In this document: in pieces, positions 31,223 to 57,625 of the stretch
Layout of the letters: the number at the start of each line of letters is the position of its first letter
How positions within the stretch are numbered: position 1 is the stretch's first letter
Notes under the pieces: model-generated
Told to the model about the DNA's origin: nothing
Seen by the model: the letters and a program-made list of their open reading frames with translations, nothing else
Databases searched by the model: none
Position numbers and translations under genes: made by a program
Assembly: GCA_018064245.1 (NCBI GenBank)
Contig: JAGHVO010000036.1
Coordinates: 1-64,000, forward strand
Length of the DNA stretch: 64,000 bases
Reading direction: 5' to 3'
DNA from: Candidatus Colimorpha pelethequi
GTDB lineage: Bacteria; Bacteroidota; Bacteroidia; Bacteroidales; P3

Positions 31223-32008
31223 ATGAACTTTTTCACAACCATAATGGGCAGCGGAGCTGCCATTCCAACTCTTGCTCGACATTGTAGCGCACAATCTGTC
31301 AACATCAACGGTTTCAGGATGTTGCTCGACTGCGGCGAAGGCACGCAGAACCAACTTCGCGCCTACCATCAAAAGCTACAATCCTTCAGTCTTGTCTGCA
31401 TCTCGCACCTTCACGGCGACCATTTGTTCGGACTGCCCGGACTACTGTCCACGATGCACCTCTGTGGTCGCACCGAACCCATAGACGTCGTCGGCCCCAA
31501 AGGCCTCAAAGCCATCCTTGAGCCCATCTTTTTGTTTTCCAACACCATATTGAACTACGAACTGCGTATCACCGAGTTGGAAGGAAACGACTATCGACAA
31601 GTTTTCGAGGAACGACGCTGCAAGGTTTTCGCATTTCCCTTACGTCACTCCGTACCCACCTACGGCTATGTGATTGAAGAGATTCCGCGTAGCGCCAACA
31701 GCGCTCCTCGTCGCTATGCCTACTGCTGCGACACCGCCTATGACGAAACAATCCTGCCCTACATACAGAACGTCAACCTTTTGTGCATGGAAAGCACGTT
31801 CGCAAACGATTTCCAAGCCGTGGCAGACGAGAAGTTGCATTGCACAGCCGCCCAAGCCGCCACTTTGGCACAGAAAGCCAACGCCAAGCAACTGCTGCTG
31901 ACCCATTTCAGCGCCCGCTACAAAGAACTCGACACCCTCATGGCAGAAGCCCAAGCCATCTTCCCTGCAGCCATCGCCGCCCACGACGGCGAACGGTATG
32001 GAATCTGA
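31223..32008 (+). CDS. rnz: Ribonuclease Z
   Basis: LDCGEGTQNQLR, ISHLHGDHLFGLPGLL, THFSARY. Confidence 0.94.
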   Translation: MNFFTTIMGSGAAIPTLARHCSAQSVNINGFRMLLDCGEGTQNQLRAYHQKLQSFSLVCISHLHGDHLFGLPGLLSTMHLCGRTEPIDVVGPKGLKAILEPIFLFSNTILNYELRITELEGNDYRQVFEERRCKVFAFPLRHSVPTYGYVIEEIPRSANSAPRRYAYCCDTAYDETILPYIQNVNLLCMESTFANDFQAVADEKLHCTAAQAATLAQKANAKQLLLTHFSARYKELDTLMAEAQAIFPAAIAAHDGERYGI

Positions 32009-47974: not shown

Positions 47975-49315
47975 TTATTCAAACAATCTTGCCACGCGCG
48001 ACATTACCGAAGGCAAAGCGAAAACGACAACCTTGTCGTTGGCTTTGAGTTGCGTATCTCGGGCAGGAAGAATAGTATCTCTGCCTCGTATGATACCGCC
48101 AACCATAGCGCCTTCGGGAAGGTTGATATCCGCCAACACCGAACGCGTAGCCGGCGCACGTTTTCCAACTATAAACTCAATCAATTCCGCATTGGTACCG
48201 CTGAGCCACTTGCTCGAAACGGTGTCGCCCTTGACGATAAAACGAGCGATATAAGATGCCGTGATAAGCTTTTTGTTGATGATGGTATCAATGCCGATGT
48301 CTTGGGAAAGATTGATAAATCCCGTATTCTCGACCAAAGCGATCGTACGACGGACACCCAATTTTTTAGCGTTCAAACAAGTGAGCACATTTGTTTCCGA
48401 CGAATTAGTCACCGACACAAAAGCGTCAGTATTCATCAAGCCCTCCTGCTTCAGCATCTCAATGTCCGTAGCGTCGCCATGCACCACCAATGTACCGGAA
48501 AGCACCGTACTCAAATCCTCGCAACGTTTCAGGTTTTCCTCCACCAAGGTAACCTTTTTTTCTTTCTGAAGCGTCAAAGCGGCATATCGACCTATGCGGC
48601 CACCGCCGGCAATCATCACGTTCTTGATGGCCACCTCGCGCTTTCCCGTAACCTCCTTGATGACATCCAGTTGATTAGGCTTGCTAATCACATAGGCAAG
48701 GTCGCCGGCATGGAACACGAAATCGCTATGCGGGATATAGGTCTCGCCCGAACGCAACACGGCGACGACTCGCGCCTGCATGGTGCGATAGACATGCGTC
48801 AAATCCTCCACGCTCTTACCCACCACGGGAGAGCCATCTTCGAGGCGCAGCAGATACATGGTGAGCAGTCCGCCCGAGAAATCGAAAAACTCCGTAGCAA
48901 CAGTATGGTTCAACAGATTCGTAATCTCCTTTGCGGCAATACGTTCCGGGCACACAAGCTCATCCACGCCCAAATCTCGAAACATGTCGCGATGGTTGGG
49001 TTGCAGCAGTTCTGCATTGGTAATACGCGCCACCGTGCGTTTCGCCTTCAATTTCTTGGCAAGAATGCAAGTAATCAAATTGATGGATTCGTCGTGCAAG
49101 ACCGACAGAAACAAGTCGCAGTTGGCCACATCGGCATCTTTCAGCACCTGTGGCGAAGTCGAATCCCCCGCAATAGTCAGCAAGTCGGTTTCCGACTCAA
49201 GTCGCTGCAGCAATTCCGAATGAGGATCCACCACCGTAATACTATGATCCAGCTCCGTCAACGATTTAGCAAGGTGAAACCCCACTTCGCCATCTCCAGC
49301 AATGATGATATTCAT
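47975..49315 (-). CDS. trkA: Trk system K+ regulator TrkA
   Basis: MNIIIAGDGEVGFHLAKSL; second RCK GGGRIGRYAAL. Confidence 0.95.
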   Translation of the reverse strand: MNIIIAGDGEVGFHLAKSLTELDHSITVVDPHSELLQRLESETDLLTIAGDSTSPQVLKDADVANCDLFLSVLHDESINLITCILAKKLKAKRTVARITNAELLQPNHRDMFRDLGVDELVCPERIAAKEITNLLNHTVATEFFDFSGGLLTMYLLRLEDGSPVVGKSVEDLTHVYRTMQARVVAVLRSGETYIPHSDFVFHAGDLAYVISKPNQLDVIKEVTGKREVAIKNVMIAGGGRIGRYAALTLQKEKKVTLVEENLKRCEDLSTVLSGTLVVHGDATDIEMLKQEGLMNTDAFVSVTNSSETNVLTCLNAKKLGVRRTIALVENTGFINLSQDIGIDTIINKKLITASYIARFIVKGDTVSSKWLSGTNAELIEFIVGKRAPATRSVLADINLPEGAMVGGIIRGRDTILPARDTQLKANDKVVVFALPSVMSRVARLFE

Positions 49316-49576: not shown

Positions 49577-49891
49577 TTAGTCTTGTTTGTCAATAACTTG
49601 TATATATTTTTGATTCCTGCTGTTAGGTTTTTCCCGAACTGTCATTTTCACCAATCCATATTCTATCAAGGTATCAATGTACATCCGTTTATATCCTCCT
49701 CGATTGCTTTGCCGGAATAGTTGCAATAATTCCTTTAGAGATTTTGGAGTACTTAATGATATATATGTTTTTGCCAATAGTTCAATATCCAACGACTTAT
49801 CTTGTGACACATCTTGTAACATACATTTCTTAACAAACTCTATATCAAACAAATTAACTTGTAACATATCTTGTGACACAACTTGAGACAT
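49577..49891 (-). pseudogene. C-terminal remnant of AlbA_2/RecG-like ATP-binding protein (winged helix)
   Basis: Linker-like SQVVSQDMLQV repeats then KSLKELLQLFRQSNRGGYKRMYIDTLIEYGLVKMTVREKPNSRNQKYI. Confidence 0.5.
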
Positions 49892-50026: not shown

Positions 50027-50710
50027 CTAAATTGACTTTAGTTTTTCAACCCATTCAGCAAAATGCTTACATGATTTACTCAAACAATCCATGCCAATTT
50101 CGTGAGCAATCATAGACCCAATGGCTGGTTTGTTGTTCGCATAATCAGGGAAAACTTTAATAATTCTTTTTGATGGAGCTGTATCTACTCCGTCATTAAT
50201 TAATTCAGGATTACCTTTCTCTTCGACAATACTTTTTAATATATCTATTCCTTTTTGATTTCCAATATATTCTATTTCAAATTTTTGAGGATAAGTAAAT
50301 AATAATGTCTCAAATTCATGTAACTGAATGTATGGAATGAAACGGTAATCGTTAATGTCATCCGCAAAAGCTTGTTCCAATATTTTTACTTTTGTATAGG
50401 GATCAACTTGTTTTTTTGCGATACAAAAACCTGGAAAATCATTGGGTAGTGCATATAAATCAAACATGGAAGAAAAACGAACATCATTGTTATTCTGTTC
50501 TTCTTTTAACCATTGGATAATATCATTTTTTGCTTTGGCATAATTTATCATGCCGCCACGGTACTTAATGTCTTGACGGTGTTTGTCCTTGCTAGTGAGG
50601 ACACAACGTACGTCAGTAGAGATATTATAATCGCCTAAAAATTCCGTTAGGGTCTTCTTGACGAAGGCTTCTTCAGTCTGGCCTTCTGCTATGATGTGCA
50701 AACGTTTCAT
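50027..50710 (-). CDS. DUF4276-like (TOPRIM-type) protein
   Basis: MKRLHIIAEGQTEEAFVKKTL; IQLHEFETLLF; overlaps upstream ATPase by 4 nt. Confidence 0.8.
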   Translation of the reverse strand: MKRLHIIAEGQTEEAFVKKTLTEFLGDYNISTDVRCVLTSKDKHRQDIKYRGGMINYAKAKNDIIQWLKEEQNNNDVRFSSMFDLYALPNDFPGFCIAKKQVDPYTKVKILEQAFADDINDYRFIPYIQLHEFETLLFTYPQKFEIEYIGNQKGIDILKSIVEEKGNPELINDGVDTAPSKRIIKVFPDYANNKPAIGSMIAHEIGMDCLSKSCKHFAEWVEKLKSI

Positions 50711-51843
50711 GGACGACCTCCTATCACATTCTTATCCCACAATTCGCTCGTAGTATAGTCTTTTAGCCAATCTTGTAATCCCATTTCATCCAATTTTTTG
50801 AAAGTGGAGGTTTTTTCTCGATTGTTACGTTCGACAACAACAATTTTATCGGCCGAAAACTCATCAATCAATCGAGGAGACTGGGTGGCAACAATAATTT
50901 GAGCAGTATTGCTGGCTTTTTTTATCATTCCAGCCAAAATATCTATTGCAGTAGGGTGAAGTCCTAATTCCGGTTCATCCAAAACAATGATGGGAGGCAT
51001 TGTGTCTTCTGGTTGAAGAAGCAATGTCGCCAACGCCATAAAACGCAATGTGCCATCGGATATCTGATGTGCTCCAAAAATATTATTATTTCCTTTTTCT
51101 CTCCAATCCAAATCTATAAAATATTCATTTTGTATCGAAGGCAACATGACAAAATCATCAAACTGGGGGAAAACTTGTTGTATATAACGGATTATTCGAG
51201 CATAATATGGTTCACCACCTTTTTTTGTCTTGATACCATATAAAAAAGCGGCAAGATTTCCTGCGTCAGAACGTAACATCCTATTATTCGCAATATTGGT
51301 ATGTTGTTTTATTTCCGATTTACTACTCGTATCATGGAATTGAAAATACTGACATCCTTTTAATAAAGAAAGGACAAATTGAACCATGTTTTTGTAAGGT
51401 TTTCCCACCATTGATTGCTCAATCAATTGGGATTCCTTTCTTCCAACATCCATAGTAATAACAAACGGATCTTTGAACTTTTCTCTATTCAAAATACTCA
51501 AAGTTTCTTCTGTGTAAATGAGAATATCTCCAGCAGCATGTGTTAAACGGAAAGAATACTCATCCTTACTCTGTTTATCCGAGAAAGTCAACTTCGCAAA
51601 CATCGATTGAGTTTGTTTTGATCCATAGTGTAAAAACGAATTAGCAAACCCATGTTCTGCTACATATCTCTGAAGAGAACCCGTTATGGCAAATCCAAGC
51701 ATGTGAAAAAAGGAAATGATATTACTTTTCCCAACGCCATTGGCTCCTATCAATACCGTAACATCATCATTGATAGGTATTTTTTGTTCACCATCAATGG
51801 ATTTATAACCAGATAGACTTATTTCGTTCAATTTTAATTTCAT
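50707..51843 (-). CDS. AAA_21/AAA_15-type ABC-like ATPase
   Basis: VLIGANGVGKSNIISFF Walker A; PPIIVLDEPELGLHP Walker B; AQIIVATQSPRLID. Confidence 0.9.
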   Translation of the reverse strand: MKLKLNEISLSGYKSIDGEQKIPINDDVTVLIGANGVGKSNIISFFHMLGFAITGSLQRYVAEHGFANSFLHYGSKQTQSMFAKLTFSDKQSKDEYSFRLTHAAGDILIYTEETLSILNREKFKDPFVITMDVGRKESQLIEQSMVGKPYKNMVQFVLSLLKGCQYFQFHDTSSKSEIKQHTNIANNRMLRSDAGNLAAFLYGIKTKKGGEPYYARIIRYIQQVFPQFDDFVMLPSIQNEYFIDLDWREKGNNNIFGAHQISDGTLRFMALATLLLQPEDTMPPIIVLDEPELGLHPTAIDILAGMIKKASNTAQIIVATQSPRLIDEFSADKIVVVERNNREKTSTFKKLDEMGLQDWLKDYTTSELWDKNVIGGRP

Positions 51844-52779: not shown

Positions 52780-53460
52780 TTACGGAATTAACATTGTCCT
52801 ATCAATACCATCTACTGCTCGAACAAATTCATAAATAAAAATAGTTGTATCAACAACATCTTGATGACTTATTGGATACCTCTTTTGATTTATTGAATCC
52901 CAATCAGCTTCATGAGCAATTCTGTTTCTTTGATCTATTACAAGTTTCAATTTTGTATCAAAATCAGAATTTGTTATTGAATATCCATTATTATTTATTT
53001 CACTAACAATATCTTGGATTTTATGAGTGTTAGTCCATATATAACTTAATGCATCTGCTATTTTGTCTTGTTGTTGAAATGATAGTGATTTAAAAATTCC
53101 ACTAAAATATGTATAAAGAAACTCTGATATTTCTGTTTCGTATTCAATCTGATTTATTGTAGCAGTTGCTCTTTTATTTTCAATATCTACAAAATTGACA
53201 ACATTTTCTAAATTCATTGTAGCATTGTTCCATTTTTTAGTTCGTGTTCTTCTTTGAAAGTAAGCTTCAACTATTCCATCTTTTACTAATTTATGAAAAT
53301 AATTATCCATTGCACTTATAACGGTTATTATTTCCATCCTTAATATGTCACTCAAACTATCTTGTAGTAAAGGATTTGTGTTTAATGTAGCAATATAAAA
53401 AGTATCTACTAATTTTACATCGTTGATGTTACAACAAAAAATATTAAAAGCATTACTCAT
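52780..53460 (-). CDS. HEPN-domain (RiboL-PSP-HEPN-like) putative ribonuclease
   Basis: VIDQRNRIAHEADW contains Rx4H HEPN motif; overlaps ParA-like gene by 8 nt. Confidence 0.7.
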   Translation of the reverse strand: MSNAFNIFCCNINDVKLVDTFYIATLNTNPLLQDSLSDILRMEIITVISAMDNYFHKLVKDGIVEAYFQRRTRTKKWNNATMNLENVVNFVDIENKRATATINQIEYETEISEFLYTYFSGIFKSLSFQQQDKIADALSYIWTNTHKIQDIVSEINNNGYSITNSDFDTKLKLVIDQRNRIAHEADWDSINQKRYPISHQDVVDTTIFIYEFVRAVDGIDRTMLIP

Positions 53461-54466
53461 ATAGGAGAATTATCGTATTACATATATTGATAAAGGCATT
53501 TTGGAAATCAGAAAGAGTAGACATTAAATTTTCTTTTATTACTCCAGAATTCGGTATATCAGCTTCAGTTAAAGCAACAACTGGAATACTTAATTGTTGA
53601 CTAGTTTGTCCCAGTGATGCGAAATCTTTTATTTCTGCTAGGCAATAGTCATTTGTGTATTTTTCAACATCAAAAGTCATATTGTATTTTTGAATTTCTG
53701 GGACTAACTTATTTTTAGTAATTTCTTTGATTTCATGAATATTATCTTTATATGGACCTGCTGCTTTGCCATTCCTAATATTAAATCTTTGAATTATTGT
53801 TCCAATAAATTGTGGTAAATGAGCAGGAAAAGAATATGCAGCATTTGTAAAATTACTAATGTTATTATTTTTCCATTTTGCCCAAGAAGGAAGAATGTAA
53901 CTCAAACTGTTTAATGCCATTTTACAAAACAAATCTGGATTTGTTGGAATAATAAATCCGTCACTGATTAAAAACATAACTTGATTGATAGAACCTAATC
54001 CCGGATTGACATCAATAAACACATAGTCAATTTCATATTTTTGGATGGTTTTTTCTATCAATTCATTGAATGAACCTGGTAGATTCTGTAAACTTGACAG
54101 AGACATAGATGCTGTTAAGGCAAATGTGAGTTGAGCTTCCAATTCGGATAAATTCATATGGCCTGCCAGCAAGTATAAATTTGAATTACGAGAATGATTC
54201 TTGCAATCTACAGCTTTAATCGGATTCGGACTTCCTTGAAATGCTGGATCAACACCATTTTTTATATTTTGGTTTTGCGTATCCGGTTCATCATAAAATC
54301 TGTCAAAATCTGTTCCTAAAAAGAATGATGTCAAATTACATTGAGGGTCGGCATCAACTAGTAAAACTCTTTTCCCCATTTCAGCCAGTTTCCAGCCAAT
54401 ATTGTAAGTTGAAGTTGTTTTACTGACCCCACCTTTGTGGTTGAATAATAAAATTTTTTTTGCCAT
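53453..54466 (-). CDS. ParA/AAA_31-family P-loop ATPase
   Basis: LLFNHKGGVSKTTSTYNIGWKLAEMGKRVLLVDADPQCNLTSFFLG deviant Walker A; YVFIDVNPGLGSINQ. Confidence 0.88.
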   Translation of the reverse strand: MAKKILLFNHKGGVSKTTSTYNIGWKLAEMGKRVLLVDADPQCNLTSFFLGTDFDRFYDEPDTQNQNIKNGVDPAFQGSPNPIKAVDCKNHSRNSNLYLLAGHMNLSELEAQLTFALTASMSLSSLQNLPGSFNELIEKTIQKYEIDYVFIDVNPGLGSINQVMFLISDGFIIPTNPDLFCKMALNSLSYILPSWAKWKNNNISNFTNAAYSFPAHLPQFIGTIIQRFNIRNGKAAGPYKDNIHEIKEITKNKLVPEIQKYNMTFDVEKYTNDYCLAEIKDFASLGQTSQQLSIPVVALTEADIPNSGVIKENLMSTLSDFQNAFINICNTIILLYE

Positions 54467-54616: not shown

Positions 54617-57058
54617 TTATTCCCCAATTCTTTCCACATACCTTTTCAGCATCTCCATTTCCTTGCGCTTCATATAGTTTTCCATGAAAACATAGTCTGG
54701 CTCGCCTTCAGAATTTATGGGGAGCATGATGCTTTGACGCTTCATGCGTTCTCCGTTAAACTTATAGCCATATTGATATTTCACTTTTTGCTGAAGAATT
54801 GCTGACTTTATAAAAAGGTAAACAAACTTGTTATCAGCAAAATTTTTCAAATGCAAGCGTTTTACATCATCAGAAAAAACAGCTTCATACGGATGATAAA
54901 AGTTTTCGACGACACTTCCATTGTAATTTACGCCCAAAACATTTCTATCCAATGATTCATTTGTATTTGAAACAAATTCAGTAATCCCATTATTAGAATC
55001 TGTTGAGCCAATAAACGGACGATTTCCATTTTTCTGATTATCCTTAGTCAAACGGACACCTGAATTTACCGAAAAGACATCTTCAATACAGAAAGTTTTC
55101 CATTCCTTGTTATCCAACGATTCAACTTTCGGCAATTCACCAATTCGTTCCCTTTTTTCTGAATTATCAAACAAATACCCGCGTCCGTGGGCAATCATGT
55201 TAAACTCAAAAGTGAGGTAGTCGGCCATTGTCTTTTCAAAATCAGCCTCGGTCGGAATGTCCTCGTTGAAATAATAGAATGAATGTAGCCATTCATCATC
55301 AGCTTCAACGGTGGAAGTCACCATGAAGTCGTTGGTGGTATGCCTGCCCATCAGCCAACAGTCCAATAAGAGTTTCTTGCGTTCCTTGGCTTGCTCGGTC
55401 GGCAGCAGCCCCAAATGCGGAAACACCACAAAGCCGTCGTCCTTAAAGTTTATGAACTTGCTGTACTTGTTTTTTGGGTGCGGACGGTGTGCGGTGAAAA
55501 CGGCAATCACGGGATTTGTGCCAACGCCGTAGAAAGTCTGAGGATTCAAGGTAATCACGCCTTCCAAAGTATGGTTTTCCAGAATATAGCGTTTGTCGAT
55601 TTTGTCTTCCTTGGTTTTGCCTACCATAGTGCTTTGTGGCACAATCACCACGCAACGCGCGCCATCAGCCAACGAATCAAGCAAATGGCAGATGAATTTC
55701 AATTCAGCAAGTTCGGCTGTCGTCTTGCTTTTGCCTTGCGAATAAGGCGGATTCATGAAACCGACGGTAAAGTTTTTCTTTCGCAATTCCTCGGCTGGCT
55801 GTTTCAGAAAATCGGCACAAATCAGATTGCTTTTTCCATCGCCGCGCAAAATCATGTTGGTTGTGGCAATCGAAAACATATCGTCGCGTAACTCTATGCC
55901 ATGCAAACGCTCTTTCTTCACGGTACGCTGTTCGGTACGGCTCGCATTTTTCAGCATCCGGTGCATGGCCGAAATTAGGAAACCGCCCGTGCCGCAACAT
56001 GGGTCAAACACATTGTCGGTCGGTTTCAAATCGGCCAAATCGACAAAAAGCTCCGTAATGTGTTTCGGTGTCAGCACAACGCCCAATGTCTGTCCGTCGC
56101 CGCCGCTGTAACGGATAAACTCGCCATAGAAACGTCCCAAGACATCTTCAGGCGAATTGTTGCAAATGGCGGTGAGGATATTAGAATAAAGATATTCAGC
56201 AAAATAACGCAATGGCGACTTGCCTAATTTGGGACTGAACTCCGACAAATGCGGACGATTTTTTATCAGTCGGAACTGGTCGAGAACCTTTTCCTTTTTC
56301 ACTTGCGGCTGAACGTGAACGCTGTCCATGTGTTTTGAAAGGGCATCAAAAATCTTGTCGCCGTCGGTTTCTCCAGTTTCCTGCGAAGCGGTCAGTTGTT
56401 CCGTATCAAAATGCTGTTCCTGCAAGGCAAGCAAGATGGCAGAGACCACCAAAGGCTTTTCCGAATCGCCCAACTGTCCGTAATTGCGCAAATCCTCATG
56501 CAATTGTCCGGCACGTTTCAGAATCACTTCCAATTCCGCCTGTTCCACAGTCTTGCTGCCCAAGACCTCGGTGCGATAATAATTGGTGATTTTTTCAGCC
56601 GTAAAGTTCTCAAAACTCTTGACTTTTTTGAGAATCTGATAGCCGTTTTCGCTCACGAAAATCGGACGGATGATGATTCTTTCATCCTGCGTCCCCGAAC
56701 AGCCAAAGGCAAACACTTTTTTGAAATGCGTCTTTTCGATGATATTCAGGGCATAATGCAAGGCACCGTTTTCAGCGTAGTTGGTCACGCTCGATGTGTC
56801 CATCAGAAGCGTGTCCTCTCTTTCGTTCATGTATTTTGCCTGCTTCGTCTGGTCGGCCTTATCCTCGATGACGATGATAAACTCGCCAGATTGAGCGACA
56901 AATTCAGGAAATCCTGTTTTGCCCGTTCCGCGTTTCGAGGAGGTCTTGAGGGCTTCGTTGATTTCCTCAATCTGGCTGCCATTCATTGTAAAATCGAGGC
57001 CGGCGTTTGTGAGCAATTGCGCCACAATGAAATCGGTTTTCTTCTCGTAGTCAGTCAT
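54617..57058 (-). CDS. Single-chain N6-adenine methyltransferase with nuclease-like N-terminus and TRD-like C-terminus (BcgI/type IIG-like RM enzyme)
   Basis: FPEFVAQSGEFIIVIEDKAD (possible PD-(D/E)XK); FDPCCGTGGFL; VGFMNPPYSQGKS (NPPY); C-terminal WKTFCIEDVFSVNSG... TRD-like. Confidence 0.82.
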   Translation of the reverse strand: MTDYEKKTDFIVAQLLTNAGLDFTMNGSQIEEINEALKTSSKRGTGKTGFPEFVAQSGEFIIVIEDKADQTKQAKYMNEREDTLLMDTSSVTNYAENGALHYALNIIEKTHFKKVFAFGCSGTQDERIIIRPIFVSENGYQILKKVKSFENFTAEKITNYYRTEVLGSKTVEQAELEVILKRAGQLHEDLRNYGQLGDSEKPLVVSAILLALQEQHFDTEQLTASQETGETDGDKIFDALSKHMDSVHVQPQVKKEKVLDQFRLIKNRPHLSEFSPKLGKSPLRYFAEYLYSNILTAICNNSPEDVLGRFYGEFIRYSGGDGQTLGVVLTPKHITELFVDLADLKPTDNVFDPCCGTGGFLISAMHRMLKNASRTEQRTVKKERLHGIELRDDMFSIATTNMILRGDGKSNLICADFLKQPAEELRKKNFTVGFMNPPYSQGKSKTTAELAELKFICHLLDSLADGARCVVIVPQSTMVGKTKEDKIDKRYILENHTLEGVITLNPQTFYGVGTNPVIAVFTAHRPHPKNKYSKFINFKDDGFVVFPHLGLLPTEQAKERKKLLLDCWLMGRHTTNDFMVTSTVEADDEWLHSFYYFNEDIPTEADFEKTMADYLTFEFNMIAHGRGYLFDNSEKRERIGELPKVESLDNKEWKTFCIEDVFSVNSGVRLTKDNQKNGNRPFIGSTDSNNGITEFVSNTNESLDRNVLGVNYNGSVVENFYHPYEAVFSDDVKRLHLKNFADNKFVYLFIKSAILQQKVKYQYGYKFNGERMKRQSIMLPINSEGEPDYVFMENYMKRKEMEMLKRYVERIGE

Positions 57059-57370: not shown

Positions 57371-57625
57371 TTAATCAAAAAAAACCTCAAGCACTTTCTT
57401 ATCAGTCAGTTGCAGCAAGTATGAAAAAAGTTTTCCCACCAGCTCATTGGGTGATGTCTGAAATTCGTCCGACAGTGTCGGACGATATCCAATCAACCAG
57501 TTTCGCAACGTAGCCATCTTATTGACTGCATTTAATGCCCGCGATTGTGCTTCACTGTGCAGTTGTCTTATGCTGTCTGTCAGTGTTTTGAAATCCAGTA
57601 TATTATGAGACAAATTGTTCTCCAT
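57371..57625 (-). pseudogene. Truncated DUF1016 (YhcG-like nuclease) N-terminal relic
   Basis: LTDSIRQLHSEAQSRALNAVNKMATLRNWLIGY resembles DUF1016 N-terminus; only 84 aa. Confidence 0.5.

Follow-up and report, generated by a model that had tools for sequence, protein, structure and literature searches.

An overlapping ATPase-HEPN gene pair in an AT-rich island

The locus considered here raises the question of whether a ParA-like ATPase gene and the HEPN gene that it overlaps, both located in a 64,000-nucleotide stretch of Candidatus Colimorpha pelethequi DNA (the window), are unrelated neighbours or the two halves of one functional module and, in the latter case, what the ATPase does to its partner. 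An earlier note on this DNA had described a 337-aa ParA-like protein containing KGGVSKTT and DADPQCNLTSF, encoded by a gene that overlaps by 8 nt that of a 226-aa protein containing RNRIAH. Both reading frames and all three motifs were found as described; the strand, which that note did not state, is the minus strand for both genes. The features of the pair are the following:

53453-54466, minus strand: gene 1 of the module, ParA/Soj-like (AAA_31) ATPase, 337 aa; Pfam AAA_31, 2.8e-29
52780-53460, minus strand: gene 2 of the module, HEPN (RiboL-PSP-type) protein, 226 aa; PF18735
53453-53460, minus strand: overlap of the two reading frames, 8 nt (gap of -8)
54413-54436, minus strand: P-loop KGGVSKTT of the ATPase (residues 11-18), read from the sequence, with Ser for the usual Gly of KGGVGKT
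52912-52929, minus strand: RNRIAH, the Rx4H motif (R178 to H183) of the HEPN protein, invariant in 24/24 homologues

The pair lies inside an 8.6-kb AT-rich insertion (49.3–57.9 kb) with chromosomal genes on both sides, and the G+C content around it (26-40%, compared with ~50% in the flanks) bears out the AT-rich setting noticed previously. The insertion and its borders contain the following elements:

Ends at 49315: left flank, TrkA-like gene (named by reading of the sequence)
49577-49891: relic-like short ORF with a Fic-like C-terminal winged-helix domain (Pfam)
50027-51843: HEC-01A/B-like pair (AAA_21 ATPase and DUF4276), a PADLOC candidate defence system
54617-57058: type IIG restriction-modification gene (Pfam and PADLOC scans)
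57371-57625: relic-like short ORF that reads like the start of a putative DUF1016-type protein
57895 onward: right flank, nitroreductase-like/acyl-CoA-ligase pair (named by reading of the sequence)

In two congeneric relatives the flanks nearly touch: 127 bp separate trkA from the nitroreductase gene in G708, and 143 bp separate it from the ligase gene in G698; a third relative (G697) has 762 bp at the same position. An 8.5-kb stretch found there in G701 was considered as a further island and discarded, as most of it appears to be housekeeping (fatty-acid synthesis) genes. A profile of the window ParA family detected no ParA of this type in 60 related genomes, the best other score being 82 bits compared with 461.6 bits for the window protein. 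The AT-richness, the near-touching flanks in relatives, the defence genes and the absence of the ParA from 60 relatives therefore indicate that the stretch was most likely acquired horizontally as an island of the defence type and is not the partition locus of a plasmid.

The 226-aa protein belongs to the RiboL-PSP-type HEPN family

The window HEPN protein matched the Pfam family PF18735 (HEPN_RiboL-PSP), and not PF18737, with an E-value of 1.5e-5 and 25.4 bits, which is below the Pfam cut-off of 28.4. This sub-threshold call is secured because PF18735 was matched by all 24 aligned homologues (best value 1.5e-17) and because R178 and H183 of the Rx4H motif are invariant in every one of them. 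Residues R41, D52, H56, I181 and D186 are likewise invariant in the alignment of the 24 homologues. Two plasmid-derived rows were left out of the alignment prepared for structure modelling. The AlphaFold2 model of the protein was all-helical with a mean pLDDT of 95.1; neither a Foldseek search with the model against PDB and BFVD nor a phmmer search with the sequence against PDB sequences returned a significant match. Hence, the previous identification of the 226-aa protein as HEPN holds at the level of family membership and the Rx4H motif, and the confident helical fold had no significant structural counterpart in the Foldseek search. PF18737 (MAE_28990/MAE_18760-like) was tried as the true family and dismissed, with weak matches in 4/24 relatives (best 4.9e-4), and no ParA was found beside any of the 14 places that carry PF18737 in the phylum sample.

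Some features of the two proteins could be taken as signs that the pair formerly worked and is now drifting in this genome. The near-invariant W148 is replaced in the window HEPN, the window ParA belongs to the more divergent members of its clade (tip length of 0.78 compared with about 0.3-0.4 for several neighbours), and other genes of the island look like relics. However, both reading frames, the Rx4H motif and the P-loop signature are intact and the gene overlap has been kept, and we consider decay of the pair quite improbable.

The window ATPase is not a partition ParA

The AlphaFold2 model of the window ParA was also confident (mean pLDDT of 95.1) and matched ParA/Soj structures, the best being 3pg5 (DIP2308 of Corynebacterium diphtheriae). 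This uncharacterised protein is also the only PDB sequence that the ParA profile matched over its full length (E=1.1e-38). Its P-loop has Ser in place of the usual Gly, and the window protein is a putative ATPase by homology. The Pfam scan gave no match to an HTH domain in the 337-aa protein. The possibility that a unique C-terminal extension marks the family was weighed and abandoned, as the C-terminal motif resembles that of an ordinary Soj and the protein is only longer.

The AAA_31 homology and the presence of Soj/ParA proteins among the nearest solved structures would be expected if the protein were a genuine DNA-partition ATPase next to an unrelated HEPN gene. Nevertheless, the gene adjoining parA encodes the HEPN protein rather than ParB, and the Pfam scan found no ParB among the neighbours of the pair, in line with what had been noted before. 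The profile of its own family gave the window ParA 461.6 bits but only 76.5 bits to the other ParA of the same genome, and 22 ordinary chromosomal ParAs fell on one side of a branch with support of 100 (in a quick tree with a small outgroup, to which a long-branch warning applies), so that neither bit scores nor tree group the window protein with chromosomal Soj/ParA. Together with the recurrence of an adjoining HEPN gene in 24 non-redundant cases (see below) and the absence of this ParA from complete related genomes, these data contradict a partition locus, a reading that we reject as having next to no probability.

The ParA-HEPN pair recurs in phages, prophages and plasmids

Viral contigs and sampled genomes were surveyed for relatives of the window ParA by alignment-based scans, because a single-sequence scan of genome contigs gave one locus only. 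The survey yielded 207 relatives that formed 134 clusters at 90% identity, figures that derive from viral-contig predictions and best-scoring matches and are not unbiased frequencies. A HEPN gene was located directly downstream of parA in 24 non-redundant clusters (90% identity), which include phage Pf1, prophages, plasmids and another genome. The distance between the two genes in these 24 pairs ranged from -38 to +23 nt, with six pairs at -8, and the pairs adjoin phage structural, secretin or integrase genes. Accessory genes of prophages are usually found at such sites. A tblastn search with the HEPN protein detected its gene on plasmids of Burkholderia (13 in all, from B. arboris and B. glumae) and in the filamentous phages Pf1 and WX-TY (the latter a Pseudomonas phage), with parA just upstream in every case; in the phylum sample it was present in one of 395 other genomes, again with parA upstream. 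The divergence of the ParA proteins was correlated with that of their HEPN partners (Mantel r=0.848; 0/5000 permutations as high), although correlated distances are expected from joint inheritance as well as from co-adaptation.

The co-occurrence of the two genes in other genomes, on which their linkage had been made to depend, was thus established by the neighbourhood survey. Since the 24 non-redundant pairs share the same gene order, the pairing exceeds chance, and the window genes constitute a real, recurrent two-gene module.

Two of these loci showed peculiarities. The ParA of Pf1 is annotated as 'Orf317, similar to Soj'. No annotation exists for the HEPN gene behind it, an ORF of 175 aa (408-935 of locus L008, minus strand), shorter than its relatives, that overlaps Orf317 at the left end of the prophage. 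On the B. glumae plasmid NZ_CP035903.1, the HEPN match (31493-31876) covers 63% of the query, and the toxin is apparently truncated next to an intact-looking ParA.

Other enzymes occupy the HEPN position behind related ParAs

Inspection of the genes directly downstream of the ParAs revealed three main families, i.e., HEPN (24 clusters), SIR2_2 (20 clusters) and RelA/SpoT-type synthetases (18 clusters), and in almost every case of these three types parA and the partner gene either overlap or lie very close together. The catalytic residues N117, D119 and H159 are conserved in all 20 SIR2 partners, and R62, K64, K72, D100, G103, R105, E181, Q183 and R185 in 17/17 RelA-type partners. The ParA-SIR2 and ParA-RelA divergences were also correlated (r=0.833 and r=0.847, respectively; 0/5000 permutations as high in either case). 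When the partner label was mapped on a tree of 125 ParAs, 11 changes were required, compared with 62.6 after shuffling; the SIR2-type ParAs form one clade, 17 of the 18 RelA-type ParAs group in another with the remaining one elsewhere, and the HEPN-type ParAs are compatible with a single origin. Each toxin is therefore largely confined to one ParA clade. The P-loop sequence is KGGVSKT in 23/24 HEPN-type ParAs and KGGVGKT in 20/20 SIR2-type ParAs, and the Ser is also present in both cyclase-type and in many solo ParAs; it may be speculated that this residue slows ATP turnover and makes the protein a switch rather than a motor.

Rare partners were observed as well. Cyclase-like proteins, DUF4062 proteins and members of an unnamed family occurred twice each, and a Corynebacterium protein of 288 aa with a motif similar to Rx4H occurred once. 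The cyclase-like proteins (L017:3992-4702 and L100:1617-2300), recognised by our own reading of a FLDILG...FSDS-type sequence and with no Pfam match, are encoded by the overlapping next gene of their ParA and are possibly signal-making partners. The unnamed family, encoded at L042:5026-5958 (310 aa) and L033:2078-2593 (171 aa) and also with no Pfam match, is a possible further toxin type.

Taken together, these data place the window pair as a single branch within a larger group of ParA modules, others of which have SIR2 or RelA/SpoT enzymes in the HEPN position. This exchangeable position for the toxin, behind a single lineage of ParAs, is a more interesting result than the pair alone.

Close relatives of the predicted toxins lie behind parA, and many ParAs stand alone

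To describe the linkage from the toxin side, matches to each partner were inspected for an upstream parA. It was found at 19/19 SIR2 matches and at 21/21 close RelA matches with enough upstream DNA (E<=2e-47), whereas more distant RelA relatives (E>=4e-31) lacked it. With HEPN, parA was upstream of 16/22 matches, and the other six were among the most distant ones (5e-8 to 5e-5). Conversely, 56 of the 125 ParAs had no recognisable partner, and no HEPN fragments were found behind nine solo ParAs that were inspected. A toxin that depends on its partner and a partner able to live alone constitute the pattern expected of a toxin and its antitoxin or restrainer. As in type II toxin-antitoxin systems, the genes form a two-gene operon, the proposed antitoxin comes first and close toxin relatives were not found without ParA.

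In P22-like and lambdoid prophages, some solo ParAs follow CI/S24-type repressors in the same orientation, with no toxin gene behind (loci L011 of Salmonella phage SE1, L016 of E. coli, L055, L073, L084 and L096), and such a repressor-linked locus was present in at least 109 of 5,426 complete E. coli genomes. These proteins are possibly lysogen-expressed antitoxins, anti-defence or exclusion genes. The solo ParAs show that ParA has some role without a linked toxin, which counts against the module reading.

A restrained HEPN toxin as the proposed mechanism

The conserved active sites, the recurrence, the gene order and overlap, the matched divergence, the dependence pattern seen from both sides and the carriage on phages, plasmids and a chromosomal island are the observed part of the module reading. 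On this basis we propose, as a fairly likely explanation, that ParA and HEPN work as one functional module, part of the wider three-toxin ParA set, in which the ATPase holds a HEPN endoribonuclease inactive until a trigger releases it. ParA would be made first and bind the HEPN protein, keeping it inactive through nucleotide-dependent binding; a trigger, most likely phage infection or loss of the ATPase or of the element, would break this hold, and the freed HEPN RNase would then cleave RNA and growth would stop. Family knowledge suggests the toxicity and RNase activity of HEPN, its neutralisation by ParA and the infection trigger. The asymmetry in dependence and the gene order would fit ParA as an antitoxin or sensor that restrains a dormancy or abortive-infection toxin. 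The idea, already put forward in the earlier note, that the ATPase senses or restrains the HEPN effector thus remains the best reading of the co-occurrence, the Rx4H motif and the dependence pattern, with defence and toxicity as its presumed components.

The same arrangement might instead serve the maintenance of the element, the pair killing cells that lose a prophage, plasmid or island, with any phage defence being incidental. The presence of pairs on plasmids, filamentous phages and prophages, the antitoxin-first order and the failure to find close toxin relatives without ParA all agree with such an addiction system. Nevertheless, the window pair resides in a chromosomal island beside other defence genes (type IIG and HEC-01-like), which gain little from addiction, and the occurrence of SIR2 and alarmone-synthetase enzymes with ATPases of this lineage is reminiscent of effectors that infection triggers; we regard addiction as rather unlikely. 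It could also be argued that ParA is an activator, i.e., that HEPN does no harm by itself until ParA in its ATP-bound form, on recognising a phage product or a DNA state, switches it on. Many two-gene defence systems operate in that manner, AAA_31 ATPases are known to change conformation with nucleotide and can bind DNA, and a large ATPase stands in the place of a small antitoxin. However, the gene order, the need of the toxin for ParA and the abundance of solo ParAs fit a restrainer better, and an activating role appears unlikely.

Extending the restrainer reading to the whole family, ParA might serve phages and islands as a safety catch of general use that also senses infection and to which different lethal outputs can be attached (HEPN RNase, SIR2 NADase, RelA/SpoT-type synthetase and perhaps cyclase-like and other enzymes), the solo ParAs acting as trans-antitoxins or anti-defence proteins that shield prophage or host. 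We advance this broader proposal tentatively, as a possibility that may well not hold in full.

Relation to known systems

The module resembles HEPN-MNT (HepT-MntA, type VII TA) in being a two-gene module with the regulator gene first and the HEPN RNase second, and differs from it in the partner, which is an AAA_31 ParA ATPase instead of an MNT nucleotidyltransferase, so that AMPylation is not expected. ThsA, Lamassu LmuA and toxic small alarmone synthetases contain the same effector domains (SIR2, RelA/SpoT-type) as the alternative ParA partners; to our knowledge, the known SIR2 and RelA/SpoT defence effectors are paired with other sensors or antitoxins and never with a ParA ATPase. Within the ParA family itself, Pf1 Orf317 shares 51% identity with the window protein and has the HEPN gene right behind it, and gp23 of Salmonella phage SE1 (annotated as similar to Soj/ParA; 35.5% identity) represents a phage that carries ParA alone; the database records give both proteins only a regulatory or partition-like role. 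As for defence-system models, PADLOC-DB 2.0 contained none that matched the HEPN protein, and the ParA matched only 39 residues, corresponding to the P-loop, of PDC-M28B; no model covered both proteins.

The view that the pair was an unrecognised system did not hold. A 'less common gene dyad' of a MAE_18760-family HEPN and a ParA/Soj-like ATPase, with the ATPase as proposed antitoxin and the RNase as toxin, was already predicted in 2013 (Anantharaman et al. 2013, PMC3710099), and the idea of a ParA-HEPN pair is therefore not new. In the window, too, a ParA/Soj ATPase gene lies directly upstream of a HEPN gene; the 2013 HEPN belongs to the MAE_18760 family, an assignment judged here through the PF18737 profile rather than the MAE_18760 protein itself, whereas the window HEPN is of the Ribo L-PSP type (PF18735, 24/24). 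The parts of PMC3710099 drawn on here list the Ribo L-PSP-type HEPN separately, in an operon with ParB, and make no mention of SIR2 or RelA partners of ParA. Judging from its sequence, the window module would be a variant of the predicted kind with a HEPN family that differs from that of the 2013 dyad. Apart from the 2013 prediction, the open-access literature searched, as distinct from subscription journals and preprints, yielded no report in which ParA is paired with any of HEPN, SIR2 and RelA, a faint indication that the SIR2 and RelA versions have not been reported previously.

Significance

ParA proteins are textbook cargo-positioning ATPases. That related ParAs are coupled with three toxic enzymes of unrelated kinds, mostly in prophages and in Pf1, a phage studied for a long time, points towards a second use of this fold, as a modular regulator in immunity or in toxin-antitoxin systems. 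The module is widespread, barely described and borne by phages and islands, which suggests a common design of a safety catch plus a toxin. These results also provide a testable role for an unannotated gene of Pf1 and for the 'ParA-like partition protein' of P22-like Salmonella phages, and they raise the question of whether one ParA can restrain the toxin of another.
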